Below, piece by piece: positions 12,000 to 52,096 of a DNA stretch of 64,000 nt (position 1 is the first letter of the stretch; each line of letters begins with the position of its first letter). Location of the stretch: positions 1 to 64,000 of the forward strand of contig VBWA01000030.1 of the NCBI GenBank assembly GCA_006218025.1, given 5' to 3'. The position numbers and the translations under genes are program-made. A model generated the notes under the pieces. That model was not told where the DNA came from. It was given only the letters and a program-made list of their open reading frames with translations, and did no database searches. Origin of the DNA: Rhodocyclaceae bacterium (GTDB taxonomy: Bacteria > Pseudomonadota > Gammaproteobacteria > Burkholderiales > Rhodocyclaceae).

Positions 12000-12013
12000 T
12001 TGATTCCAATCAA
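12000..12013 (+). promoter_or_regulatory. FNR/ANR/DNR box upstream of nirS
   Basis: TTGATTCCAATCAA is a perfect TTGAT-N4-ATCAA dyad centred 88 bases upstream of the nirS start codon. Such boxes drive anoxic or nitric-oxide-responsive nirS expression in denitrifiers through FNR, ANR or DNR proteins. No clear -10 hexamer is visible at the ideal distance. Confidence 0.8.
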
Positions 12014-12060
12014 GGACACCAAGCCGATTGTCGAGCACCCTCCGCCGTCTCAAAAAAATA

Positions 12061-13837
<1,777 letters not shown>

Positions 13838-34799: not shown

Positions 34800-35933
34800 C
34801 TACACCGTCCCCCAGTACGGGGTGGCGATCGCCTCGCCCAAATCGGCCTCCACCAGCCGCCGCCTCACCTCCAGCAGCCGGGCGATCAGCTCCGGTTCGG
34901 CCCGGCCATAGGCCTCGGCATCCGGCGCGCGTTTGACCACGACGCCGAGCATTTCGGTGATGGCGTTGCCGATGGAGTTCTGGCTGATGGTGACGATCAG
35001 CCTGCCTACGTCGTTGCGGTAGATAAGTTGCTTGAAGGCCGGCTGCCAGCGAATGGCGTTGGCGTACTTGGCATCCTTGATGCAGCGGTCGCGCACCATC
35101 TTCGCCGTCTTCAGAAAATCGTTGTCGAACTGGAGCTTGGCCTCGACCAGTTCGGGAAAATGGATGTCGCGCGGCAGCGGCGCGTTGCGCGTCGAAACCT
35201 GCGTGAAAAAGGTCCGGTAGAAATCGATGAAGCCCTTGAGGATGGCGTCGTATTCCTTCCAGAAACGCACTTCCTTGAGTGCGGCCAATCCACCATCAGC
35301 GCCCTGTATCTCCCAGCTCGGCAGCCCCTGCGGGTAGCCGGTCAGGGCCAGGCGGCAGGCGCCGTCCTCACAGGGCCGGAGGATCTGCAGGTCGAGTCCG
35401 GCGAAGAAGGCACGGTACACATCGCGCATGTGGGCCTGGAACAGCGAGTGCTGGCCGCCATCGGTGAGGTTCGGGTTGTCGGCGTCGGCCAGCGGCGCGG
35501 CACGCAATTCTTCCTGGTCGAAGACGATGAAGTGGTTGTGCAGCATGCGGATGCTCGGCACGCCCGGCGACGTCAATGGCCAGGTGGCGTCTAGGCTGGC
35601 CTCGCCGGCCAGCACCAGATGGCGCGATGGGTCCGGGTAGCGTTCCAGCATGAACTCGATGATGACCTGGTTCATGCGGTTCCAGACGTTCTTCACGGCG
35701 TCGGGCACCTGGGTGCGGCGCACCGGGCGGCCGAGCGGATCGAGGATGGTCTGCGAAGTGTTGTAGATAATCGAGGCGTCGAACTCGTTGCTGTGGCCGA
35801 GCGCCTTGCGATAGAGCAGCAGGCCTTCGGGATTCAGCAGCAGGCCGTTGTTGTGCACCAGGTCGTTGAGGTTCTCGGTGCTGTTGAAGAACTCGGTCGA
35901 GCGGAATCGGACGAAAGGGAGTGGCGATTTCAC
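34800..35933 (-). CDS. conserved-looking protein of unknown function
   Basis: I do not recognise this 377-residue protein. It has no signal peptide or membrane helix and a balanced, soluble composition with many Trp, His and Asp residues. Segments that look structured are HLVLAGEASLDATWPL, RMLHNHFIVFDQEEL (near residue 150), QAHMRDVYRAFFAGLDL and FIDFYRTFFTQVS. The two Cys lie in RPCEDGACRL. It begins with MKSPLPFVRFRSTEFF and ends against element B. Codon use matches its neighbours, so it is a real gene. The upstream 357 bases are gene-free, suggesting its own promoter. Confidence 0.7.
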   Translation of the reverse strand: MKSPLPFVRFRSTEFFNSTENLNDLVHNNGLLLNPEGLLLYRKALGHSNEFDASIIYNTSQTILDPLGRPVRRTQVPDAVKNVWNRMNQVIIEFMLERYPDPSRHLVLAGEASLDATWPLTSPGVPSIRMLHNHFIVFDQEELRAAPLADADNPNLTDGGQHSLFQAHMRDVYRAFFAGLDLQILRPCEDGACRLALTGYPQGLPSWEIQGADGGLAALKEVRFWKEYDAILKGFIDFYRTFFTQVSTRNAPLPRDIHFPELVEAKLQFDNDFLKTAKMVRDRCIKDAKYANAIRWQPAFKQLIYRNDVGRLIVTISQNSIGNAITEMLGVVVKRAPDAEAYGRAEPELIARLLEVRRRLVEADLGEAIATPYWGTV

Positions 35934-36290
35934 GCGGTCCGGATTGCATGCGGTCCCCTTTGGACAGGCCTTCAGACAAGACCGGGGAGCTTAGTCGCGC
36001 GCCACCACGCCGGCAAATAGATAAATTGAACGGGCCGATGCACTGCAGCGATGCGCCGTCCCGCTGCTCGCAGGGCGTGCCTCGGCCGGGAGAAGGCCCT
36101 CGCGCTCAAGGTGTGACAGCATGAATCCGGACAGCCAAGCTGTCTTGATCCTTGCGCGCGGGCGCGGCCCGCGTTCGTCACTATTCGACCGGAGAGTTCC
36201 CGACTGCCAGAATCATTTGACTGGGATCAATACCGCCCCTGGCGCATCCAGCGGAAAATGTGCGTCTGTTCCTGACCGGGGAGTTGCAGC
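35934..36290. other. divergent intergenic region upstream of hemerythrin-cyclase
   Basis: This 357-base gap separates two divergent genes. It holds a GGACAGC-CCAA-GCTGTC-type hairpin near 36135-36151, a GC palindrome near 36155-36172 and an FNR-like box at 36217-36230. I see no coding region in it. Confidence 0.6.
36217..36230 (+). promoter_or_regulatory. FNR/DNR-like box upstream of hemerythrin-diguanylate cyclase
   Basis: TTGACTGGGATCAA matches TTGAT-N4-ATCAA at nine of ten positions and is centred about 67 bases before the start codon. GAAAAT at 36254-36259 is a fair -10 at class II spacing, predicting a start site near 36265. Confidence 0.6.
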
Positions 36291-37577
36291 ATGAACACGT
36301 CCATGAATGATCTGGCCTGGCTGGCCGATTCCACCGTGCACGATCTGATCCAGCGCTTCCCCCTGCCGATCGCGCTGCTCGATGATGCAGGCGGCGCCCT
36401 GGTTCTGAACGATCGCTTCGGACGAAATTACGCTCCCGAGACGCTGGCCTCGGCGCCGCTTCAGGATCTGATGCGCAACCCCGTGCCCGGCTGGCATACG
36501 GTCCGGGTGCCGAACCTGGGACAAGGCGAGGTCGAGATCAAGGCTCAGGTGCTTAGCGTTCAGGGCACTCCGATGCTGATCCTCGACGACGCGACCGATC
36601 CCGGCTTGCTGCGGGAACTGGATCAGTTGCACGGACAAATCACCGAGCTCGAACGGATCAGTTCCACCGACCGCCTGACCGGGGCCTGGAACCGCCATCA
36701 TCTCGACCGCGTGGTGGCGGCGGAGCTGGACCGCAGCATCCGGTCCAGGCAGCCGGTCTCGCTGGTCCTTTTCGATATCGATCATTTCAAACTCGTCAAT
36801 GATACTTACGGCCATCAGACCGGCGACTCCGTGCTGTGCGAGCTGGTCAAGGTGATCGGCGGCGCGATTCGATCGGTCGATACCCTGTTTCGCTGGGGCG
36901 GTGAGGAGTTCGTGGTGCTCGCCTCGTCCACCGGCTACCGTGCCGGGACGACGCTGGCGGAGAAGTTGCGCGGCAAGGTGGCGCAGCATGGCTTTGCCGG
37001 CGTCGGCAGGGTGACCATCAGCCTGGGCGTCGCGGAGCACATTGCAACCGAGAGCGCGGAAATCTGGTTCGGGCGGGTGGATCAGGCGCTGTATCGGGCC
37101 AAAAACGGCGGGCGCAACCGCACCTGCGTCGACGAGCACGGCAGTTCCGACATCTGGGCAGGGGAAAGCGGGCCGTCGGTGATTCGCCTGGTATGGCAGG
37201 AAGCCTACGAATGCGGCGAACCCGCCATCGATCGCGAGCACCGCGAACTGTTCGAACTGGCGAACGCGCTGCTCGATGCCTCGTTCAAGTCGGAGTCGGC
37301 TCCCGAGGTCTTCGGCGCGGCGCTGCAAAAGCTCCTGGCGCACATCGTGCAGCACTTCGCCCACGAGGAGGCCCTGCTCGCCCGGCATGGTTACGAACAG
37401 CTCGAGCCGCACCGGCGCGCCCATGCCGGATTGCTCGCGCGCGCAGGCGAGCTCAAGGCGGCCGTCGAGGCTGGCAAGACCACATTGGGCGATCTGGTCG
37501 ATTTCCTGGCGACTACCGTGGTTGCGCAGCACTTGTTCAAGGCGGATAAGGAGTACTTTCCCTTGTTCAAGAAATGA
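36291..37577 (+). CDS. diguanylate cyclase with C-terminal bacteriohemerythrin domain
   Basis: This 428-residue cytosolic protein has a PAS-like N-terminal part (about 15-105), a GGDEF domain (about 120-285) and a hemerythrin domain (about 300-428). The active site is GGEEF, and RSVD five residues before it is an intact inhibitory I-site. The hemerythrin part shows the expected iron ligands: H in IDREHRELFE, HFAHEE, HRRAH and HLFKADKEYF. Diiron hemerythrin-cyclases of this kind change c-di-GMP synthesis with oxygen in characterised relatives. It lies 55 bases before the HD-GYP gene, so one locus may hold synthesis and breakdown, and its FNR-like box suggests low-oxygen control. Confidence 0.92.
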   Translation: MNTSMNDLAWLADSTVHDLIQRFPLPIALLDDAGGALVLNDRFGRNYAPETLASAPLQDLMRNPVPGWHTVRVPNLGQGEVEIKAQVLSVQGTPMLILDDATDPGLLRELDQLHGQITELERISSTDRLTGAWNRHHLDRVVAAELDRSIRSRQPVSLVLFDIDHFKLVNDTYGHQTGDSVLCELVKVIGGAIRSVDTLFRWGGEEFVVLASSTGYRAGTTLAEKLRGKVAQHGFAGVGRVTISLGVAEHIATESAEIWFGRVDQALYRAKNGGRNRTCVDEHGSSDIWAGESGPSVIRLVWQEAYECGEPAIDREHRELFELANALLDASFKSESAPEVFGAALQKLLAHIVQHFAHEEALLARHGYEQLEPHRRAHAGLLARAGELKAAVEAGKTTLGDLVDFLATTVVAQHLFKADKEYFPLFKK

Positions 37578-37632
37578 AACGGTGCAGGGAAGCGCTTCCC
37601 CGCCCTGATCGTCTGGCGACCGCAAAGGGATT

Positions 37633-40600
37633 ATGAGGATGGCAATGAATGTGACACGATCCGCGCCACCGGAAAACGCGCCGAAATCGCGCCTCACCGC
37701 GTTCCCGGGCGTGTTGCTCGCGGTGCTTGCGCTGGCCATTGCAATAAGCGGCTTCGTCGCGTTCGAAATACAGCAGGAACCGCTGAAACATGAGGCGAAG
37801 CAGCGATTGGGGCGTATCGCCGACCGCAAGGTTCAAGGCGTCAACGCCTGGCTCAGGGAACAGTGGCGGGACGGCTATGCCGTCGGCCGCAATCAATTCC
37901 TTGGCGACTCGGTGGCGCGCTGGCTCGAATCGGGCGCGCGCCCTGACGCGACGAGGGACCGGATCGAACAATATTTCTCCGAACTGATCACCGCCCACAC
38001 TTATGATGGCCTCGTCCTGTTCGATCGGCACGGGGAGCCGAAGCTGGCGATTGGCCCCCATGCCGAGGTCTCCGCGAAGGACAGGGCGCGTGCCGCGGAG
38101 GCTTTCCGCAGCAGCCAGATTTCTCAGTCGGATTTTGAAGTCGTGAAATCCGAAGGCGAATCCGCCATCGTGGTCGATCTGTACGTCCCGCTGCTTGCTG
38201 CCGGCAGGGAGACCGTCGGCACGGCCGCTGTACTCATGATCCGGACCAATGCGCCCGCATTCATCTACCCGCAGATTCAGGAATGGCCGGTGTTCAGCGC
38301 CAGCGCTGAAGCCCTGCTGGTGCGGCGGGAGGGTGATCAGGTCGCCTTCCTGACCACGCCGCGAGGCCGGAAGGATGCGCCACTCGGCCTGAAATTGCCC
38401 CTGAACCGGCACGATCTGCCCGCCGCGATGGCGGTGCAAGGGAAGGAAGGGGAAGTGGAGGGGGTGGATTATGACGGCGTGCCCGTCGTTGCCGCGCTGC
38501 GCAGGATTCCCGATTCCCCATGGCATCTGGTGGCGAAGATCGACGCCGCGGAAGCCCATGCTCCTGTGCGCGAACTTGCGTTGACGTTTGCCGTGATCGG
38601 GGCGCTGGCGTTTTTCGGCGCCGGCGCGGCGGTGCTGTTCTGGTGGCGAGCGCAACGGGCGCATTACAGGGCGCGAGAAGCCGACGCCAAGGCGGAGCGC
38701 CAGGCGCTGGTCGGACACTTCGACTATCTCGCGAAATTCGCCAACGACTCCATCACGCTTGCCGATGAGCACGGCAACTTCGTCGAAACAAACGATCGCG
38801 CACTATCGGAGTCAGGCTATTCGCGCGAGGAGTTCCTGCGCATGAACGCACGGGATTTGCTGGCCGCGGACGACGTGGCGAAATACGAGCGGACTGCCGG
38901 TGGCTCGGCGCCGGCGGGCCGGGTGTTCGAGACCGTGACCAGGCGCAAGGACGGTTCGACCTATCCGGTGGAGGTGAGCGCGCGAACGATAGAAATCGAG
39001 GGGCGCAGCTTCAGTCAATACATTGCTCGCGACATCAGCGAACGCAGGCGCGCCGAAGAAGCGCTGCGCGAAAGCGAGGCGACGCTCAGGATGATTGCGT
39101 CGTCTGCGCCGGACGCCATTCTGATGCTGGACAACGACGGCAATATCAGCCTTTGGAATGCTGCGGCGGAAAGGATGTTCGGCTATTCGAGCGCGGAAGC
39201 GCTTGGAATGAACCTGCACGATTTGCTCGCTCCCGAGCGCTTCCATGAGGCTCATCGGATCGGGTTCGAGCATTTCAGGTCGTCAGGGGAAGGTGCTGCA
39301 ATCGGCAAGCCGCTGGAGCTGGCGGCCCTGAGAAAGGACGGCACGGAGTTTCCGATCGAGTTGAGCATCTCGGCGGTGAAGCTCAAGGATAAATGGTGCG
39401 CCATCGGAATTGTCCGCGACATCGGCGAGCGCAAGAAATCGGAAGAACATCTGCGCGCCAGCGAGGAACGGCACCGTTCGCTGCTGGCGGCGATGGCCGA
39501 AGGCGTGGTGCTGCAGGATGCGAATGGGGCGATCGTGATGTTCAACGAGAGGGCGGAACGCCTGCTCGGGCTCACATCCGCACAGTTCACGGGCGGACTG
39601 CCGATCGACCCCCGCTGGCGCGCGATCCACGAGGACGGTTCGGCCTTCCCGGGTCAAGAGCATCCGTCGATGGTGACGCTCAACACCGGGGTGCCGCAGT
39701 CCGACGTAGTGATGGGCGTGCACAAACCCGACGGGGCGCTGACCTGGATTTCCATCAACACCGAGGCTTTGACCAAGCCGGGACAAACGACGCCCGATGG
39801 CGTCGTAAGCTCGTTTCGCGACATCACCGAGCATAGGACTGCGGAAGAAAAGCTGCGTCTCGCCAACGCCGTGATCGAGAACAGTCCGGCCGTACTGTTC
39901 CGCTGGCGGGCCGCCGAAGGCTGGCCGGTCGAGTATGTGTCGAGCAACGTGCGCCAGTTTGGATTCACCGCGGAGGAACTGCTCACGGGCGCCGTGCCGT
40001 TTGCACGCATGGTCTACCCGGAGGACCTGGAGCGGGTGGCGGCCGAAGTGGCGCGCTATACCGCCGGCGGCTCCGAACGGTTTGCGCAGGAATACCGCGT
40101 CGTGACCAGGGACGGCGCCGTGCGCTGGGTCGATGACCGCACGACCATCGAGCGCGACGCCAACGGCGACGCCAGGTACTACCAGGGCGTGCTGACGGAC
40201 ATCACCGGGAAAAAACAGGCGGAGATGACCCTCAAGCACAGCGAAGAGCGGTATCGCACCGTGGCAAATTTTACTTATGACTGGGAAGAGTGGGCCCTCC
40301 CCGACGGGTCTCTTGCCTACGTTTCTCCATCTTGCGAGCGCATTTCCGGCTATCAGGCTCAGGAGTTCCTGCAGGATCCGGGATTGCGGGCAAAGATCGT
40401 GCATCCGGACGACAGGGAACGCGTTCAGGCGCACTTGAATTCGATACACGGCATTCCCACGGGTCCGGACGTCGAAGAACTGGACTTCCGGATCGTCACC
40501 CGCCATGGCGAAGTGCGCTGGATCGCACACGCATGCCGGCAGGTCCTTGGTGACAATGGGGAATACCTTGGGAGACGGGCGAGCAATCGCGACATCACCG

Positions 40601-43032
40601 AGCGCAAGCGGGCCGAGGAGGACCACCTCGCCCATCTCCGCTTCATGGAAAGCATGGACCAGATCAACCGGGCCATACAGGGAACGAACAACCTCGAGAA
40701 AATGATGAGCGATGTTCTTGACGCGATGCTTGAGATCTTCGATTGCGACCGGGCGTGGCTGCTCTATCCGTGCGACCCGGACGCTTCTTCCTGGACGGTG
40801 CCGATGGAACGCACCAAACCGGAATATCCGGGTGCCAGTGTGCAGGGGTTGCTGATACCGATGGATCCGGAGGTCCAGAGAATGTTCAGAATCCAGAGGG
40901 GCGCGGACAGCGCGGTTTCCTGGGGTCCAGGGTCCGACTATTTGTACCCCGAATGGCTAACGGAGCAATTCGGGGTACAGTCCCAGTTGAGCGTGTCCAC
41001 CTACCCAAAACAAGGAAAACCCTGGCAGTTCGGCATGCACCAGTGCTCTCATGCCCGGACATGGCAGCCGGAGGAAAAGCGCCTCTTTCAGGAAATCAGC
41101 AGGCGTCTGGCCGACGCCCTGAGCAGCTTGCTGATGCAGCGCGATCTGCGACAGAGCGAGGAATTCCTCGACGCCATTGTCGAGAATATCCCGGACATGA
41201 TTTTTGTGAAGGACGCACAAGCGCTGCGATTCGTGAGATTCAACAGTGCCGGCGAGCGGCTTCTGGGATACCCGCGGGAGGAACTGCTCGGGAAAAACGA
41301 TTATGACTTCTTCCCGAAGGAGGAAGCCGATTCTTTCACGGCGAGAGACCGCGAAGTGCTCGCCGGGAAAGGACTCGTCGATATCCCCGAAGAAGCGATC
41401 AAGACCAGGGTTCAAGGTGAACGCTTCCTGCATACCAAGAAGATCCCGATCGCGGACAAGGAGGGAGAACCGCAATACCTGCTCGGCATATCCGAGGACA
41501 TCACCGAGCACAAGCGGGCCGAGGATACGCTGAGGATGAGCGAAGAGAAGTACCGCACCATCTTCGAAGAATCCTTTGACGGCCTGTTCGTCACTTCCCC
41601 TGAAGGACGAATCCTCGACATGAACAAGAAGGGTGTCGCGATGTTCGGCTACGACACCAAGGAAGAAATCCAGCGCCTAGATCTGGAGCGGGACGTGTAT
41701 GCGCATCCGCCGGATCGAAAACGGATATTGGCGATGGTCGATGCACAGGGAACCGCGGAATACGAGGTGGAGGTCAAGAAGAAGACTGGCGAGGCGATGG
41801 TCACGCGTTGCGCGCTGACCGCAGTGAGGGACAAAGGGGGATCCGTCGTGTCCTACCGCGGCATAATCAGCGACATCACCGAGAAGAAACGGGCAGAGCG
41901 CGCATTGCACAAGGTGAACCGAGCGCTCAAGGCCACCAGCGCCTGCAATATGGCGCTGATCCACGCCACCGACGAGCCTCAATTGCTGAACGAAATATGC
42001 CAAATCATCGTCGAGTCGGGCGGATATCGCCTGGCCTGGGTCGGCTACGCCGAGCATGATCCGGCGAAGACGGTCAGGCCGGTGGCGCAAAGCGGGTACG
42101 AACCGGGCTATATGGAGCATACCCACATCAGCTGGGCCGATGACGAACTCGGCAACGGCCCGCTGGGGCTCGCCATCCGCTGCGGCCAGATTCAGGTGGT
42201 GCAGGACGTGAACACCGATCCACGCTTCGAGCCGTGGCGCGCCAACGCCGCCCGGCTCGGCTACGGCTCGGTGATGGTCGCACCCTTGCTGTCGGATTCC
42301 GAGACCATTGGCGCGCTGAGCATCTATGCCGCGGACACCGATGCCTTCGACGCAGCGGAAATCGCGCTGCTCGGCGAACTTGCGGCCGACATGGCGTTCG
42401 GCATCGTCACGCTGCGAGCGCGCGGCGCGCACGAACAGAGCGCGGAGCGGCTGCAGCGCAGCATGGAGGCCACCATCCAGGTCATTGCCGGCACCGTGGA
42501 GATGCGCGACCCATACACCGCGGGACATCAGATCCGCGTCGCCGAACTCGCTGCGGCCATTGCGCGAGAAATGGGGCTGACGGAAGACCAAGTGCATGGC
42601 ATCCGCCTGGCCGGCTTGGTTCACGACCTGGGGAAAATCCAGATCCCTGCGGAAATCCTGAGCAAGCCGGGGAAGCTGAGCCGTATCGAATTCGAAATGA
42701 TCAAGACGCATCCCGAAGCAGGCTACGACATTCTGAAGGACGTGGACTTCCCCTGGCCGATCGCGCAGATCGTGTTCCAGCATCACGAGCGGCTCGACGG
42801 CTCCGGCTATCCGCGCGGATTGCAGACAAACGAAATCCTGCTCGAAGCCCGCATCATGGCGGTCGCCGACGTGGTCGAAGCGATGGCCTCCCACCGGCCT
42901 TACCGGCCGTCGCTTGGCATCGAGCGGGCGCTGGAGGAGATAAGTGCGAATGCGGGGAAATACTACGATGCGGACGCGGTGCGTGCGTGCATTCTGCTGC
43001 TCCGCGAAAAGGCGTTCGCGTTCACAACGTGA
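37633..43032 (+). CDS. multi-PAS/GAF sensor with HD-GYP phosphodiesterase domain
   Basis: This very long membrane protein of 1799 residues has helices at about 25-47 and 315-338 bracketing an extracytoplasmic sensor. About seven PAS domains follow (starting near 356, 479, 609, 739, 866, 1170 and 1299). One GAF domain at about 1000-1160 and a second at 1425-1600 separate them. The C-terminal HD-GYP domain (about 1605-1799) keeps HDLGKI and HHERLDGSGYP, so c-di-GMP hydrolysis is likely. Most PAS ends carry the DISERRRAEE-type linker. It follows the hemerythrin-cyclase by 55 bases. Ligands of the PAS domains are unknown. Confidence 0.9.
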   Translation: MRMAMNVTRSAPPENAPKSRLTAFPGVLLAVLALAIAISGFVAFEIQQEPLKHEAKQRLGRIADRKVQGVNAWLREQWRDGYAVGRNQFLGDSVARWLESGARPDATRDRIEQYFSELITAHTYDGLVLFDRHGEPKLAIGPHAEVSAKDRARAAEAFRSSQISQSDFEVVKSEGESAIVVDLYVPLLAAGRETVGTAAVLMIRTNAPAFIYPQIQEWPVFSASAEALLVRREGDQVAFLTTPRGRKDAPLGLKLPLNRHDLPAAMAVQGKEGEVEGVDYDGVPVVAALRRIPDSPWHLVAKIDAAEAHAPVRELALTFAVIGALAFFGAGAAVLFWWRAQRAHYRAREADAKAERQALVGHFDYLAKFANDSITLADEHGNFVETNDRALSESGYSREEFLRMNARDLLAADDVAKYERTAGGSAPAGRVFETVTRRKDGSTYPVEVSARTIEIEGRSFSQYIARDISERRRAEEALRESEATLRMIASSAPDAILMLDNDGNISLWNAAAERMFGYSSAEALGMNLHDLLAPERFHEAHRIGFEHFRSSGEGAAIGKPLELAALRKDGTEFPIELSISAVKLKDKWCAIGIVRDIGERKKSEEHLRASEERHRSLLAAMAEGVVLQDANGAIVMFNERAERLLGLTSAQFTGGLPIDPRWRAIHEDGSAFPGQEHPSMVTLNTGVPQSDVVMGVHKPDGALTWISINTEALTKPGQTTPDGVVSSFRDITEHRTAEEKLRLANAVIENSPAVLFRWRAAEGWPVEYVSSNVRQFGFTAEELLTGAVPFARMVYPEDLERVAAEVARYTAGGSERFAQEYRVVTRDGAVRWVDDRTTIERDANGDARYYQGVLTDITGKKQAEMTLKHSEERYRTVANFTYDWEEWALPDGSLAYVSPSCERISGYQAQEFLQDPGLRAKIVHPDDRERVQAHLNSIHGIPTGPDVEELDFRIVTRHGEVRWIAHACRQVLGDNGEYLGRRASNRDITERKRAEEDHLAHLRFMESMDQINRAIQGTNNLEKMMSDVLDAMLEIFDCDRAWLLYPCDPDASSWTVPMERTKPEYPGASVQGLLIPMDPEVQRMFRIQRGADSAVSWGPGSDYLYPEWLTEQFGVQSQLSVSTYPKQGKPWQFGMHQCSHARTWQPEEKRLFQEISRRLADALSSLLMQRDLRQSEEFLDAIVENIPDMIFVKDAQALRFVRFNSAGERLLGYPREELLGKNDYDFFPKEEADSFTARDREVLAGKGLVDIPEEAIKTRVQGERFLHTKKIPIADKEGEPQYLLGISEDITEHKRAEDTLRMSEEKYRTIFEESFDGLFVTSPEGRILDMNKKGVAMFGYDTKEEIQRLDLERDVYAHPPDRKRILAMVDAQGTAEYEVEVKKKTGEAMVTRCALTAVRDKGGSVVSYRGIISDITEKKRAERALHKVNRALKATSACNMALIHATDEPQLLNEICQIIVESGGYRLAWVGYAEHDPAKTVRPVAQSGYEPGYMEHTHISWADDELGNGPLGLAIRCGQIQVVQDVNTDPRFEPWRANAARLGYGSVMVAPLLSDSETIGALSIYAADTDAFDAAEIALLGELAADMAFGIVTLRARGAHEQSAERLQRSMEATIQVIAGTVEMRDPYTAGHQIRVAELAAAIAREMGLTEDQVHGIRLAGLVHDLGKIQIPAEILSKPGKLSRIEFEMIKTHPEAGYDILKDVDFPWPIAQIVFQHHERLDGSGYPRGLQTNEILLEARIMAVADVVEAMASHRPYRPSLGIERALEEISANAGKYYDADAVRACILLLREKAFAFTT

Positions 43033-43480
43033 CGGAATCAGTCGCAACACGGTACTCGCGCCGGCTCAATTGAATTCGAACGAAACCGGAGAGGGCCGCT
43101 AGCCCGATCCGCTGAAAGTCGGCGCTGGCGGCACGGCGACCCCTGCCTCGGCAGGGTCCAGGGCCCGGTGGCGATCGCATCTGCGCCGGGGTATGGTTGG
43201 TCGGCTGAACTTCATGGCCAATCATGATGAATGATGACCGCAGTCAATGACTGCCGCGAAATTCGGCGCTATCATTCGCCCCGTCGGATCACAATAATTA
43301 GAACGCATCAAGTTTGCCCATTCCCAGGAGAAACAAGGGAACCACCGCCCCGCCCGTCCTGACCCGCAGAAGTGTCCGGGACTGCGCCAGGTGCTGGTTT
43401 CCCACCTTTGCGGTGCATTGTCGCTACGTTCGATGCGCCCTGGATTTTGACCAACGTCACTGGCGGATGGGAATCAGGCA
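43033..43480. other. 448-base gene-free region upstream of the hybrid kinase
   Basis: It contains repeat A at 43116-43138 and a CCCTGCC-TC-GGCAGGG hairpin at about 43141-43156. An AT-rich stretch follows near 43290-43310 (CACAATAATTAG) that could be promoter DNA. No coding sequence is evident. Confidence 0.5.
43116..43138 (+). repeat. dispersed repeat A, intergenic copy
   Basis: AAGTCGGCGCTGGCGG, C, ACGGCG is a full match to the consensus. It is followed at once by the GC hairpin at 43141-43156. Confidence 0.75.
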
Positions 43481-47131
<3,651 letters not shown>

Positions 47132-47152
47132 ACCTACAAACAGAATTTTGTC

Positions 47153-47289
47153 CGCAGATTTCGCAGATTGACGCAGATGGATCAGGGCCTCACTTGGCAA
47201 ATTCGTCGGTCAGGAGCTACCACCTTCCGGGTGAGTCAATGGCACTGGCCACTTCGTTGTTCGATCTGCGTAATCTGCGTCATCTGCGG
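47153..47289. repeat. inverted triple CGCAGAT repeat cluster
   Basis: Three CGCAGAT units at 47153, 47162 and 47172 face three ATCTGCG units at 47264, 47273 and 47282, with 9-10 base spacing on both sides. The arrangement is an inverted repeat of two tandem arrays between the kinase gene and cheR. Such CGCAGAT arrays recur between genes in many bacteria and form long hairpins. Confidence 0.75.
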
Positions 47290-47309
47290 ATTGAACTGAG
47301 ATTTTTTGG

Positions 47310-48137
47310 ATGAAAACCGACGACGTCGAAGACGTGGAAATCCACCTCCTGCTGGAAGGGGTGCAGCGGATTTACGGCTATGACTTCCGCGATTACGCCG
47401 ATGCCTCGATCAAGCGCCGGTTGACCCACTGGCTGGCCGAATCCGGCTTCGAGACTTTCTCGCAGGCCCAGGCACAACTGTTGCGCAGCCGCAGCGTGTT
47501 CGAGTCGCTGCTGCGCGGCATCACCGTCAATGTCACCGAAATGTTCCGCGACCCGGCCTTCTTCCGCGCCGTGCGCGAGCAAGTGGTGCCCTTCCTCAAG
47601 ACCTATCCCTTCGTCAAGATCTGGCATGCCGGCTGCGCCACGGGCGAGGAGGCCTATTCGATGGCGATCCTGTTGAACGAGGAAGGAATGGCCGGGCGCT
47701 ACCGCATGTACGCCACCGACATCAACGAGGCGGTGCTGCAGAAGGCCAGCGAAGGCGTGATGCCTATCGCCGAGATGCAGCGCTGCACCCGCAACTACCA
47801 GAAGGCCGGCGGCCGCGCCTCGTTTGCCGACTACTACACCGCACGCTATGACCGCGCGATGCTGACGGCCGCCCTGAAAAAGGACATCGTCTTCGCCCCG
47901 CACAATCTTGCGGTGGACGGCGAGTTCGGCGAGATGAACCTGGTCCTGTGCCGCAATGTCATGATCTATTTCAAGCCCGCGCTCAAGGAGCGCTGCCTGC
48001 GGCTGTTCGACAGCAGCCTGCTGCCGGGGGGCTTCCTCTGTCTCGGGCTCAAGGAAACCCTGGAGCGAAGGAAAATGGGGGACCGCTACGAGGAACTCGC
48101 CGCCCCGCTGCGTATTTACAGGAAGCGCTATGGATAG
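47310..48137 (+). CDS. cheR: CheR-type methyltransferase
   Basis: This 275-residue SAM-dependent protein-glutamate methyltransferase has the N-terminal CheR helical part (residues 1-70) and a C-terminal Rossmann domain. SAM-binding motifs include IWHAGCATGEEAYS, YATDINEAVL and LVLCRNVMIYF. It shares eight bases with cheB. No chemoreceptor gene is nearby, so it likely acts in a non-chemotaxis signalling branch with the kinase upstream. Confidence 0.93.
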   Translation: MKTDDVEDVEIHLLLEGVQRIYGYDFRDYADASIKRRLTHWLAESGFETFSQAQAQLLRSRSVFESLLRGITVNVTEMFRDPAFFRAVREQVVPFLKTYPFVKIWHAGCATGEEAYSMAILLNEEGMAGRYRMYATDINEAVLQKASEGVMPIAEMQRCTRNYQKAGGRASFADYYTARYDRAMLTAALKKDIVFAPHNLAVDGEFGEMNLVLCRNVMIYFKPALKERCLRLFDSSLLPGGFLCLGLKETLERRKMGDRYEELAAPLRIYRKRYG

Positions 48138-48771
48138 CGTGGATTCGGCCTCCGCGGCCGGCGCCCACGCCTTCCGGGCGGTGGCGATCGGCGTCTCCAC
48201 CGGCGGGGTGCATGCGCTGCAAAAGCTGCTCGGTGAATTGCCCGCGACTTTCCCCCTGCCCATCCTGATCGTCCAGCACATCAGTGCGGATGCCGACAGC
48301 GGCCTGGCGAAACTGCTCAACGACCGCTGTGCCCTGCGCGTCAAGGAAGCCGACGAACAGGACGAAATACTGCCCGGCACGGTTTATCTGGCGCCACCGA
48401 ATTACCACCTGCTGGTGGAGTGCGATGGCTTCCTGGCTCTTTCCGCCGACCCCTACGTGAGTTTCGCCCGTCCCTCGGTCGATGTCCTGTTCGAGTCGGC
48501 GGCCGCGGTCTTCGGGCCGGGGCTGATCGGCATCGTCCTCACCGGAGCGAATTTCGACGGCAGCCGGGGATTGAAGACGATCAAGCAAAGGGGCGGCGTG
48601 GCCATCGTCCAGGACCCCGCGGATGCCGAAGCCCGGCAAATGCCTCAGGCCGCGATGGCGGCAACAAGGGTAGACTACGTGGTCGCCCTGGCTGGCATGG
48701 CGGCCCTGTTGCAGCAACTCGTGGCGAGGCCCGGCACGATCCCGCGCGACAAGAATGGGCGAGATGACTGA
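48130..48771 (+). CDS. cheB: CheB-type methylesterase without receiver domain
   Basis: This 213-residue protein has only the CheB catalytic domain. The serine lies in IGVSTGG, His in IVQHIS, and the active Asp in LTGANFDGS. A receiver domain, present in chemotaxis CheB, is missing, so regulation must come from another protein. It overlaps both cheR and the downstream response-regulator gene. Confidence 0.92.
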   Translation: MDSVDSASAAGAHAFRAVAIGVSTGGVHALQKLLGELPATFPLPILIVQHISADADSGLAKLLNDRCALRVKEADEQDEILPGTVYLAPPNYHLLVECDGFLALSADPYVSFARPSVDVLFESAAAVFGPGLIGIVLTGANFDGSRGLKTIKQRGGVAIVQDPADAEARQMPQAAMAATRVDYVVALAGMAALLQQLVARPGTIPRDKNGRDD

Positions 48772-51751
48772 GAACGTGGCACTACTGCTGGTCGACGACC
48801 GCCCGCAAAACCTGGTGGCGCTGGAGGCGGTGCTCGGCGATCAGGGGCTCAACCTGGTCAAGGCCACATCCGGCAACGATGCGCTACGCCACACCCTGAA
48901 GCAGGATTTTGCGCTGGTGCTGCTCGACGTGCAGATGCCCGGCATGGACGGCTTCGAGACGGCCGAACTGATGCGCTCCAATCCAAAAACGCGGCACTTG
49001 CCGATCATCTTCGTCACCGCCGGGATGAAGGACATCCAGTTGCAGTTCAAGGGTTATGAACTGGGCGCCGTCGACTACCTGATCAAGCCTTTCGAGCCCC
49101 ATATCCTGCAAAGCAAGGTAAAGGTCTTCTGCGAACTGTACCGTCAGCGCCGCCAGCTCGAAGCCAACCAGTTGCTGCTGGAAGCGAAAATCAGGCAGCG
49201 GGTGTCGGAACTCGGGGAGAGCGAGGAGCGCTTCCGTATGCTGGCCACCCACGCCCCGGTGGGCATCTACCAGATCGACACCGCGGGCAATTGCCTTTTT
49301 GTGAACCGCCGCTGGTGCGAGATCGCGGGGCTTTCCGCCGCCGAAGCCGCTGGACAGGAATGGATGCGGACGATACATCCGGACGACAGGGATGCCGTCG
49401 CGTCGATCTGGCGCGAACCCGTGTCCTCCGCCGGCGAATGGTCGATGGACTACCGCTTCCTCAGACCCGACGGCAAGATCGTCTGGGTAAACGGCAACGC
49501 CATCGCCTTGCACAACGCCACGGGCGAGATCACCGGATATCTGGGCAACAACCTCGAAATCACCGCGCGCAAGCGCGGCGAAGAGCGGCAGCGCACGCGC
49601 AGCGCAGTCACCGGGCGACTCGCCGAGGATGCCGGTTTGCCGGAGATTCTTCATCTCATCGCCGAAGGCGCCGAGCGCCAGACTCATGGCATGGCCTGCT
49701 CGATCCTGCTGCTGGACGAGACCGGTCAGCAATTGATCTATGGCGGCGCCGCGCCCCTGACGGACCGCGTCGGCCGCGCCGGAAGCTACATCGGCGACGG
49801 CGCCCGCGCCGCCTGCCTGGTCACCAAGAACCGCGGCAAGCGTTTCGTCATCGATGACATCAGCGCCCATTCGATCTGCGACGATTGCCGGCCCCCGGCG
49901 CTGGAAGGCAAGCAGTTGTCGTGCTGGTCGGAGCCGATCCTCGCCATCAATGGCGAGGTGCTGGGGGTGTTCGCGTTCTACTGGGCGCAACCAGCCGCAC
50001 CGGACGCCGGCGATATCGAACTGATGCATGAAGCGGCCCAACTGGCCGGGCTCGCCATCGAGCGCAAGCGCACCGAAAACGAGTTGCAGATCGCCGCCTC
50101 GGTGCATCAGGCCGTCAGCGAAGCGATCGCGGTGACGGATGCCGACAACCGCATCATCGCCATCAATCCGGCCTTCACCCAGGTGACCGGTTATGCCCCG
50201 CACGAAGCCATCGGCAAGGATTCGAACCTGCTGAAAAGCGGACGCCACGACCTGCCCTTTTATCAGAAGATGTGGCATGCGCTGGAAACCACCGGTCGCT
50301 GGCAAGGCGAGATATGGAACCGGCGCAAGTGCGGCGAGGAATACCCGGAGTGGCTGTCGATCAGCACCATCTGCGACGCGAACGGCAAGGTACTGCGGCG
50401 TATCGCCATGTCGTCCGACATCACGGAAAAGAAACGTACCGAGGAAACCATCTGGCGCCAGGCCAACTACGATTCCCTCACCGAACTGCCCAACCGCCGC
50501 TTGTTCCGCGACCGTCTGCAACAGGAGCTGCTCAAGGCGCAACGGGGGAACCTTTACGTGGCGCTGCTGTTCGTCGACCTCGACCGTTTCAAGGAGGTGA
50601 ACGACAGCCTCGGCCATCACAGCGGCGACCTCCTGCTGATCGAGGCGGCGCGGCGCGTCTGCGATTGCGTGCGTACCACCGATACGGTGGCGCGTCTCGG
50701 CGGCGACGAATTCACGGTCATCATGTCCGAGCTCGCCGACACCGACCGCGTCGGCGAGGTCGCCCAAGCAATGCTGCGGGCCCTGGCTGAACCATTCGTG
50801 CTCGGTGCCGAGTCGGCCTACGTGTCCGCCAGCATCGGCATCACGATCTTTCCGAGCGATGCCGACAATGTCGAGTCCCTGCTGAAGCATGCCGACCAGG
50901 CCATGTACGCGGCCAAGGAACAAGGCCGCAACCGCTTCAGCTATTTCACCGCTTCGATGCAGGCGGCGGCACAGACGCGGTTGCTGCTCAGCAACGACTT
51001 GCGCAACGCCATCGCTGCCGGCCAGCTCGAAGTGCATTTGCAGCCGATCGTGGAACTGTCCACGGGCTGCATCCAGAAGGCCGAAGCGCTGCTGCGCTGG
51101 CGCCACCCGACCCACGGCATGGTCGAGCCGGCGCAGTTCATTCCGATTGCCGAGGAAACCGGACTGATCAACGAAATCGGCGACTGGGTGTTCAGGGAAT
51201 CGGCGCGCACCGCCAAACGCTGGTACGACGGCGGCTTGCTCAATGCGAGTGATGACGGGCTGATCCAGATCAGCGTGAACAAGTCGCCGCGCCAGTTCTT
51301 CTCGGGCAATACCCATGAAACCTGGATCGAATACCTGAACGAAATCGGCCTGCCGGCGAAGTGCATCGCCATCGAAATCACCGAGGGTCTGCTGCTCGAC
51401 GACAGGCCGGAAATCGCGGCCAAGCTGCAGCAGTTCCGCAATGCCGGTTTCCGGGTTTCGCTCGACGATTTCGGCACCGGCTATTCGGCGATGTCCTATC
51501 TGAAAAGGTTTCCCCTCGACTTCATCAAGATCGACCAGTCCTTCGTGCGCGACATGGCTACCGACAAAGGCGACCAGGCCATTGTCGAGGCCATTGTCGT
51601 CATGGCCCACAAGCTTGGGCTCAAGGTGATCGCCGAGGGCATCGAAACCCAGGAGCAATGCGAGCTTCTGAAAGCGGCCGGCTGCGACTTCGGCCAGGGC
51701 TACCTGTTCGCCCGGCCGATGCCTGCCGCCGAAATGCTCCCGACCAGTTGA
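48755..51751 (+). CDS. response regulator with PAS, GAF, PAS, GGDEF and EAL domains
   Basis: This 998-residue cytosolic protein starts with a receiver (residues 8-125; Asp in VLLDVQMPG). A PAS domain (about 155-280), a GAF domain (about 290-440) and a second PAS (about 450-565) follow. The GGDEF domain (LGGDEF near 650) and EAL domain (EALLRW near 775) come last. Both catalytic signatures are intact (DDFGTGYS, KIDQSFV, AEGIET); EITEG replaces the usual EITES. It should be phosphorylated by the neighbouring kinase and switch c-di-GMP turnover. Starts at ATG 48755 or ATG 48764 are possible. It overlaps cheB by 17 bases. Confidence 0.94.
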   Translation: MGEMTENVALLLVDDRPQNLVALEAVLGDQGLNLVKATSGNDALRHTLKQDFALVLLDVQMPGMDGFETAELMRSNPKTRHLPIIFVTAGMKDIQLQFKGYELGAVDYLIKPFEPHILQSKVKVFCELYRQRRQLEANQLLLEAKIRQRVSELGESEERFRMLATHAPVGIYQIDTAGNCLFVNRRWCEIAGLSAAEAAGQEWMRTIHPDDRDAVASIWREPVSSAGEWSMDYRFLRPDGKIVWVNGNAIALHNATGEITGYLGNNLEITARKRGEERQRTRSAVTGRLAEDAGLPEILHLIAEGAERQTHGMACSILLLDETGQQLIYGGAAPLTDRVGRAGSYIGDGARAACLVTKNRGKRFVIDDISAHSICDDCRPPALEGKQLSCWSEPILAINGEVLGVFAFYWAQPAAPDAGDIELMHEAAQLAGLAIERKRTENELQIAASVHQAVSEAIAVTDADNRIIAINPAFTQVTGYAPHEAIGKDSNLLKSGRHDLPFYQKMWHALETTGRWQGEIWNRRKCGEEYPEWLSISTICDANGKVLRRIAMSSDITEKKRTEETIWRQANYDSLTELPNRRLFRDRLQQELLKAQRGNLYVALLFVDLDRFKEVNDSLGHHSGDLLLIEAARRVCDCVRTTDTVARLGGDEFTVIMSELADTDRVGEVAQAMLRALAEPFVLGAESAYVSASIGITIFPSDADNVESLLKHADQAMYAAKEQGRNRFSYFTASMQAAAQTRLLLSNDLRNAIAAGQLEVHLQPIVELSTGCIQKAEALLRWRHPTHGMVEPAQFIPIAEETGLINEIGDWVFRESARTAKRWYDGGLLNASDDGLIQISVNKSPRQFFSGNTHETWIEYLNEIGLPAKCIAIEITEGLLLDDRPEIAAKLQQFRNAGFRVSLDDFGTGYSAMSYLKRFPLDFIKIDQSFVRDMATDKGDQAIVEAIVVMAHKLGLKVIAEGIETQEQCELLKAAGCDFGQGYLFARPMPAAEMLPTS

Positions 51752-51803
51752 GCGGAGCGGACAGCGTACTTTGCTGTCCCCGTCCCGCTACGCAGGGGTT
51801 TTA

Positions 51804-51998
51804 TCAAGCGCGGGGAAAACCGTGGACGGGGATGCCGCATTCGAGATAACGGCGGAAGCTGCGCTCCACAACTGCGGGCGGAGACTCACCGGATGGTCCG
51901 GTGGCGATTTCCAGGCAGGTTTCGAGGTTCGGCCTGAACGCGACCGCGCTTTGCCGCCACTGCCCCTCACAAAAGCCGGGCGTCGGCGCTTTGCCCAA
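51804..51998 (-). pseudogene. truncated IS91-like transposase N-terminal fragment
   Basis: About 64 residues remain. The stretch VVERSFRRYLECGIPVHGFPRA matches the N-terminal zinc-binding region of IS91-type transposases, which normally continue with a Cys-rich segment. Here the frame stops right after GFPRA, in front of a REP-like hairpin. Only a TTG is available as a start. It is a decayed remnant without activity. Confidence 0.6.
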
Positions 51999-52021
51999 GA
52001 GTCGGCGCTGGCGGTACGGCG
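51999..52021 (+). repeat. dispersed repeat A, intergenic copy
   Basis: GAGTCGGCGCTGGCGG, T, ACGGCG matches the consensus. It lies at the 5' end of the transposase remnant and 76 bases before uvrA. Confidence 0.75.
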
Positions 52022-52096
52022 GCAGAGTTGTGGCGCGGTGGCTATCGAATCCGCAGCGGGGTATAGTTTCCGGTTCCCCAACCTCGATCCCGCATC

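Follow-up and report, generated by a model that had tools for sequence, protein, structure and literature searches.

The stretch of Rhodocyclaceae bacterium DNA analyzed here (64,000 nucleotides, positions 1 to 64,000 of the forward strand of contig VBWA01000030.1; hereafter, the window) includes a gene for a predicted hemerythrin-containing diguanylate cyclase, with an FNR-like box upstream and a gene for an HD-GYP protein downstream. This arrangement raises the question whether oxygen controls synthesis of the biofilm signal c-di-GMP twice, through transcription of the cyclase gene and directly through the iron of the enzyme, and whether the two controls would act in the same direction.

A predicted diguanylate cyclase with a C-terminal hemerythrin domain

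The ORF at 36291-37577 (+ strand) encodes a protein of 428 amino acids for which domain searches and, at the N-terminus, a predicted fold indicate the order PAS-like – GGEEF – hemerythrin. A Pfam search identifies a GGDEF domain at residues 125-277 (36663-37121, + strand) with 127.9 bits, against a cut-off of 23.8, and a C-terminal hemerythrin domain at residues 312-425 (37224-37565, + strand) with 47.1 bits, which is also above the cut-off. The translation contains the active-site signature GGEEF at residues 203-207 (36897-36911, + strand) and, five residues ahead of it, an I-site of the form RxxD, R194-SV-D197 (36870-36881, + strand). The hemerythrin tail additionally matches the NCBIfam bacteriohemerythrin model NF033749 (89.2 bits, with the cut-off at 84) and keeps all seven diiron ligands, H317, H355, E359, H374, H378, H414 and D419, a set that fits the H-HxxxE-HxxxH-HxxxxD pattern of bacteriohemerythrin sensors. 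The original prediction of a diiron hemerythrin-GGEEF protein with a retained I-site is borne out in each of these elements: the seven ligands, R194 and D197, and the GGEEF motif. Judging by these signature motifs, the protein is a GGDEF diguanylate cyclase combined with a bacteriohemerythrin sensor.

In the AlphaFold model of the whole cyclase (mean pLDDT 79.5, from an alignment of 8 sequences), a helix joins the PAS-like domain to the GGDEF domain, and residues 311-422 form a four-helix bundle. The GGDEF domain superimposes on PleD, DgcB and other solved cyclases with a Z-score of about 26 and an rmsd of 1.3-2.0 over 160-165 residues. Structure matches of the whole protein include GGDEF-containing chains only, and the missing hemerythrin chains are not counter-evidence to the hemerythrin assignment; by sequence, the solved proteins closest to this domain include DcrH. 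The first 100 residues of the cyclase have no Pfam match. The model of the N-terminal domain (approximately residues 13-101, 36327-36593, + strand; mean pLDDT 73.3) is similar to RsLOV (Z 8.9, rmsd 3.3, 113 aligned residues) and to other PAS chains, which suggests a PAS-like fold; this label is tentative because that comparison also yields unrelated folds of the Roadblock/Longin type with Z-scores of 7 to 8.5.

An FNR box upstream of the cyclase gene

The FNR box TTGAC-TGGG-ATCAA (TTGACTGGGATCAA) at 36217-36230 (+ strand) has one mismatch to the consensus TTGATNNNNATCAA and ends 60 bases ahead of the cyclase ATG (36291), which is a promoter position. The description of this site as near-perfect holds, and the site stands above background. 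Of 5000 dinucleotide shuffles of the 357-base gap upstream of the cyclase, only 23 (0.46%) contain a box with one mismatch or none. The entire window contains 38 FNR sites with at most two mismatches, compared with 12.8 expected; the six boxes with at most one mismatch are evenly split between intragenic (3) and intergenic (3) positions. Genome-wide, boxes with at most one mismatch occur in 151 places, compared with 17 for the reversed pattern, and the exact form of the cyclase site, TTGACNNNNATCAA (TTGAC-N4-ATCAA), in 17 places compared with 1. All 8 perfect FNR boxes of the genome are intergenic, including those before nirS and ccoN. A sample of 464 kb, made up of the window and 20 further stretches of 20 kb each and including approximately 40 kb of noncoding DNA as delimited by a crude ORF caller, contains 10 noncoding boxes with at most one mismatch, compared with 0.64 expected (200 dinucleotide shuffles, maximum 5); under a looser rule, there are 12 boxes compared with a mean of 0.7 per control (19 permuted palindromes, 13 boxes in total). 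This sample is non-random: its stretches come from contigs named in advance, and some of them were placed at a gene of the FNR family or at a listed box, which biases the enrichment upward; the genome-wide counts of the 8 perfect and 17 exact-form boxes are free of this bias.

The surroundings of the exact-form sites, counted for 14 of the 17 places, are consistent with regulatory positions: 10 of the 14, the cyclase site among them, are situated between major ORFs or at the edge of one, 2 are inside long ORFs and 2 inside short doubtful ones. About 1 of the 14 would be expected to be noncoding, given that noncoding DNA makes up approximately 9% of the 464-kb sample. The genes that follow perfect or near-perfect boxes include nirS (Pfam cytochrome D1), ccoN, hemN (divergent from fnr) and a gene of the chlorite dismutase family; the exact variant is the one found between fnr and hemN and before the chlorite dismutase-family gene, as well as before a frdA-like gene (L220) and a cytochrome-like gene (L225), both named by eye. 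Several of the ten intergenic exact-form sites precede genes without an evident anaerobic role. Taken together, these counts indicate that a chance origin of the box at the cyclase gene is unlikely.

Two other sites deserve mention. In the window itself, at 12000-13834, a perfect FNR box is located 95 bases ahead of the start of nirS, the gene for a cytochrome cd1 nitrite reductase. Elsewhere in the genome (G000:C122:78808-79770, loci L094 and L204), a perfect FNR box is followed by a universal stress protein-like gene and then by a hemerythrin-domain gene; as read from the gene order, this is a second link between FNR and hemerythrin in the host genome.

The remaining promoter elements are less distinctive. 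At the distance that separates box and -10 element in class II FNR promoters, the best hexamer is GAAAAT (36254-36259, + strand), 23 bases past the box. This candidate is weak and is not the “matching -10” originally described: it agrees with the -10 element in 4 of 6 positions only, such matches are frequent by chance, and it adds little to the case because, by simple base-frequency reasoning, a four-position match of this kind has a chance of about 15%. A Shine-Dalgarno-like GGGGAG, read from the sequence, is located at 36278-36283 (+ strand), 7 bases 5' of the ATG. A promoter scan of the + strand between 35900 and 37800 finds no sigma-70 site, a result with little bearing on FNR-activated promoters.

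FNR-family regulators of the host genome

The genome has the regulators that such a box implies. There are six places with a Crp-family HTH, and the two best-scoring ones correspond to proteins that exceed the cut-off of 228 for the NCBIfam Fnr model, with 251.6 and 246.2. Both contain the CxxC-x5-C motif and a further cysteine at the position equivalent to C122 of the E. coli protein. One of the two FNR genes adjoins an Rrf2-like ORF and the other an NnrS-like ORF, both ORFs named by eye. This context, the presence of six Crp-type HTH places and the perfect box at nirS within the window are all compatible with a different reading, namely, that the site is used by a nitric oxide-responsive protein of the Crp family, or mainly by the second FNR, such that the cyclase would be linked with denitrification instead of oxygen as such. 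Given that the two top-scoring family members both have the cysteines of FNR and exceed the cut-off of the Fnr model, this reading seems very unlikely, and oxygen-responsive FNR is the preferred candidate for the box.

The HD-GYP neighbor

The next gene (37633-43032, + strand), a possible co-transcribed neighbor, encodes a predicted sensor HD-GYP phosphodiesterase of 1799 amino acids with several PAS and GAF domains. Pfam identifies HD_5 at residues 1619-1780 with 141.2 bits and finds no hemerythrin match in this protein. The claim that an HD-GYP gene follows the cyclase after 55 bases is exact with respect to spacing, and the catalytic motifs, HDLGK and HHERLDGSGYP, are intact in the translation. 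No terminator is predicted on the + strand between the two genes, so that read-through from the cyclase into the HD-GYP gene, and hence co-transcription of the two, is plausible from the sequence. A short hairpin at approximately 37587-37600 was considered as a terminator and dropped because it has no T run and the intergenic stretch folds no better than shuffles.

The two genes do not form a conserved pair, a possibility that was dropped in view of the differing neighbors of the cyclase relatives. In G029, the closest HD-GYP homolog (70% identity in the domain) is on another contig than the cyclase, the neighbor of which is a histidine kinase-like ORF; in G172 (locus L132), the ORFs next to the cyclase resemble a single-domain hemerythrin and a PAS histidine kinase. 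The single-domain hemerythrin-like sequence of G172 (L132, G172:C10, 5455-6495, - strand), recognized by eye, is located just past the closest relative of the cyclase.

Relatives and genomic context

At E <= 1e-60, the cyclase is found in 2 of 61 genomes, the host included. Its closest relatives are only 50-61% identical, none of them with an FNR box; the linker between the GGDEF and hemerythrin domains is well conserved in these relatives, with 16 of 30 and 24 of 30 residues identical. Within the host's family, 26 of 150 genomes contain looser relatives with the same order, GGDEF followed by hemerythrin; such relatives are also present in Rhodoblastus, Thiodictyon, Thiocapsa, Geothrix and others. 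Of 37 loci searched for both features, 34 have the ligand signature together with the I-site. The exceptions are L131, which shows no hemerythrin, and L009 and L015, in which the scan took another GGDEF ORF; the hemerythrin parts of the latter two are present in a separate comparison.

The box does not share this conservation. An FNR box with at most one mismatch precedes none of the 31 cyclase relatives checked (24 + 7 loci; the 24 are those with the upstream region at least partly covered, that is, 31 minus the window itself and six at a locus edge), and the conservation of the site among orthologs that would support an FNR regulon is accordingly 0 of 31. A repeat check of G172, G029 and two Rhodoblastus loci likewise finds no such box; G172 has a two-mismatch site at position -406 relative to the beginning of the aligned region. 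Because no relative checked has the box upstream, dual control would be at most a feature of the host genome.

The DNA comparison within the genus provides an explanation. Matches to G009, G025 and G012 end at 36056-36063 on the left and restart at 51997-52034 on the right, which indicates that the cyclase gene, the HD-GYP gene and the box all belong to a variable segment of approximately 16 kb (36058-52033) that is missing at this position in these three genomes. The flank conserved in the genus ends approximately 150 bases ahead of the FNR box. Phylogenetic footprinting therefore gives no support to the box, with relatives that are distant and boxless and flanking synteny that stops short of it, an outcome expected if the box is a recent or lineage-specific association; comparison of these sequences indicates that it is one.

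The segment is rich in signaling genes: in addition to the cyclase and the HD-GYP protein, it encodes a hybrid histidine kinase (43229 on), which is found on separate loci in the relatives, and, by eye, CheR-, CheB- and GGDEF-EAL-like ORFs. Next to the segment, 34800-35933 encodes a 377-residue protein that has no Pfam or NCBIfam match and is 80-95% identical in 17 of 31 genomes of the genus; G012 has an extra partial copy of its N-terminal end.

It is the absence of the box from the relatives checked, along with the weak -10 and the fact that the site was picked after reading the whole 64 kb, that favors regarding the FNR-like site as a product of chance, with cyclase expression independent of oxygen and the oxygen input coming through the hemerythrin only. 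The rarity of such a box in the shuffled upstream gap (0.46%), the mostly intergenic location of the exact-form sites and the position of some of these before anaerobic-metabolism genes argue against this explanation and make it quite unlikely.

A predicted oxygen-responsive circuit

The sign of the redox response can be approached only through characterized enzymes. In the excerpt available from a 2022 review, the V. cholerae Bhr-DGC is reported to synthesize c-di-GMP 10 times faster in the diferrous than in the diferric state, and the Bhr-HD-GYP of Ferrovum sp. PN-J185 is reported to be active only when reduced (PMC9388753). The V. cholerae enzyme resembles the protein described here in the fusion of hemerythrin with GGDEF, in the H-HxxxE-HxxxH-HxxxxD ligands and in the redox gating of c-di-GMP synthesis, which is a prediction in the present case (PMC9388753, same excerpt). 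The VcBhr-DGC type, however, requires an N-terminal hemerythrin followed by a C-terminal GGDEF domain, and the host cyclase does not belong to it, with the order reversed and a PAS-like domain and an FNR box added, although it may function in a similar way.

By analogy with Bhr-DGC, the following scenario can be proposed. The protein would be a cytoplasmic diguanylate cyclase in which the C-terminal diiron hemerythrin senses oxygen or the redox state. As oxygen drops, [4Fe-4S] FNR would bind the box and activate transcription; the diferrous hemerythrin would keep the cyclase active, and its oxidation would switch the enzyme off. Production of c-di-GMP would thus be confined to low oxygen, with the I-site limiting the product, and sudden oxygen would halt the existing enzyme faster than transcription could. 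Because activity at low oxygen and FNR activation in anoxia have the same direction, such a gate would be coherent, slow to turn on via transcription and fast to turn off via iron oxidation. The HD-GYP protein encoded in the same region may hydrolyze c-di-GMP in response to its own PAS and GAF inputs. The box, the domains, the ligands, the I-site and the FNR proteins are present in the sequence; the binding of FNR and its sign, the binding of iron, the redox sign and co-transcription are inferred. An FNR-activated, redox-gated cyclase that makes c-di-GMP at low oxygen is the reading considered best, at a probability of roughly 0.5, and the action of oxygen on both transcription and enzyme activity is plausible given the sequence.

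The redox sign may not transfer from Bhr-DGC, in which the hemerythrin is N-terminal. DcrH, which likewise ends in a hemerythrin domain, has its redox-sensitive element in the loop at the N-terminal end of that domain, according to the excerpt of the same review (PMC9388753). In the host cyclase, the corresponding loop is joined directly to the GGDEF domain, and given this connection and the reversed domain order, signal transmission may differ from that in Bhr-DGC. FNR could then bind the box while the diferric or oxy form is the active one, so that the cyclase would be stockpiled in anoxia and fire upon the return of oxygen, an incoherent design. Such a design is unlikely considering that both characterized c-di-GMP enzymes with hemerythrin, the cyclase and the HD-GYP protein, are described in that excerpt as active in the reduced state (PMC9388753). 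The coherent low-oxygen gate accordingly remains the preferred reading. Its most elaborate version is doubtful although possible: a gate of two iron centers in which the [4Fe-4S] cluster of FNR sets the amount of the cyclase and the diiron site sets its activity, so that synthesis would need sustained anoxia and stop immediately once oxygen returns, and an HD-GYP protein from the same transcript would clear c-di-GMP.

Relation to known systems and significance

The individual parts of this arrangement have counterparts in other bacteria. The E. coli genes for DgcO (DosC) and PdeO (DosP) form an operon. Their products similarly pair a cyclase that senses oxygen with a phosphodiesterase of opposite activity, as stated in the excerpted text of PMC8846402, and differ in being heme rather than diiron sensors. 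DcrH of Desulfovibrio vulgaris shares the C-terminal hemerythrin on a signaling protein, its output being a chemotaxis transducer and not c-di-GMP. The Ferrovum Bhr-HD-GYP is likewise a hemerythrin-gated c-di-GMP enzyme, with the same chemistry as the neighbor gene (PMC9388753, in part); there, hemerythrin and HD-GYP are in one protein, whereas the neighbor described here combines HD-GYP with PAS and GAF. The mhr gene of P. aeruginosa is a hemerythrin gene under the FNR-family regulator Anr (PMC12403760, in part), with the difference that it encodes a single-domain O2 binder and not a cyclase.

Among hemerythrin chimeras, one survey, in the portion available, counts 30 with N-terminal and 53 with C-terminal hemerythrin, and gives 16 GGDEF plus 7 GGDEF combinations (PMC2556348); another, also in part, lists hemerythrin followed by GGDEF as one of the three most common architectures (PMC4919030). 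The excerpt of the 2022 review states that no hemerythrin phosphodiesterase with EAL was found (PMC9388753). The host genome encodes a second hemerythrin c-di-GMP protein, L201 (G000:C32, match 95879-96214), in which an N-terminal hemerythrin is followed by PAS, GGDEF and the first part of an EAL domain, in an open frame of 783 amino acids; the locus ends inside the EAL domain.

Among the literature matches listed, considered as titles and abstract openings, no hemerythrin cyclase gene paired with an FNR site is described; the one match on hemerythrin, c-di-GMP and FNR, as represented by its title and abstract opening, concerns norCBD and secretion in P. aeruginosa, and none of the listed matches on FNR and diguanylate cyclases in anaerobic conditions names hemerythrin in these parts. 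In the excerpted literature on hemerythrin c-di-GMP enzymes, no characterized cyclase with a C-terminal hemerythrin was found. Hence the parts are individually known, and their combination was not seen in these sources. The observation as such appears sound, with the box and the domains well supported by sequence, and the circuit is built on analogy. If the proposed reading is correct, oxygen alone would gate a second-messenger enzyme at the levels of both synthesis and activity, via two iron chemistries, which would be a compact natural example of such control; the protein would also offer a first test case for the cyclases with C-terminal hemerythrin that are common in the host's family.
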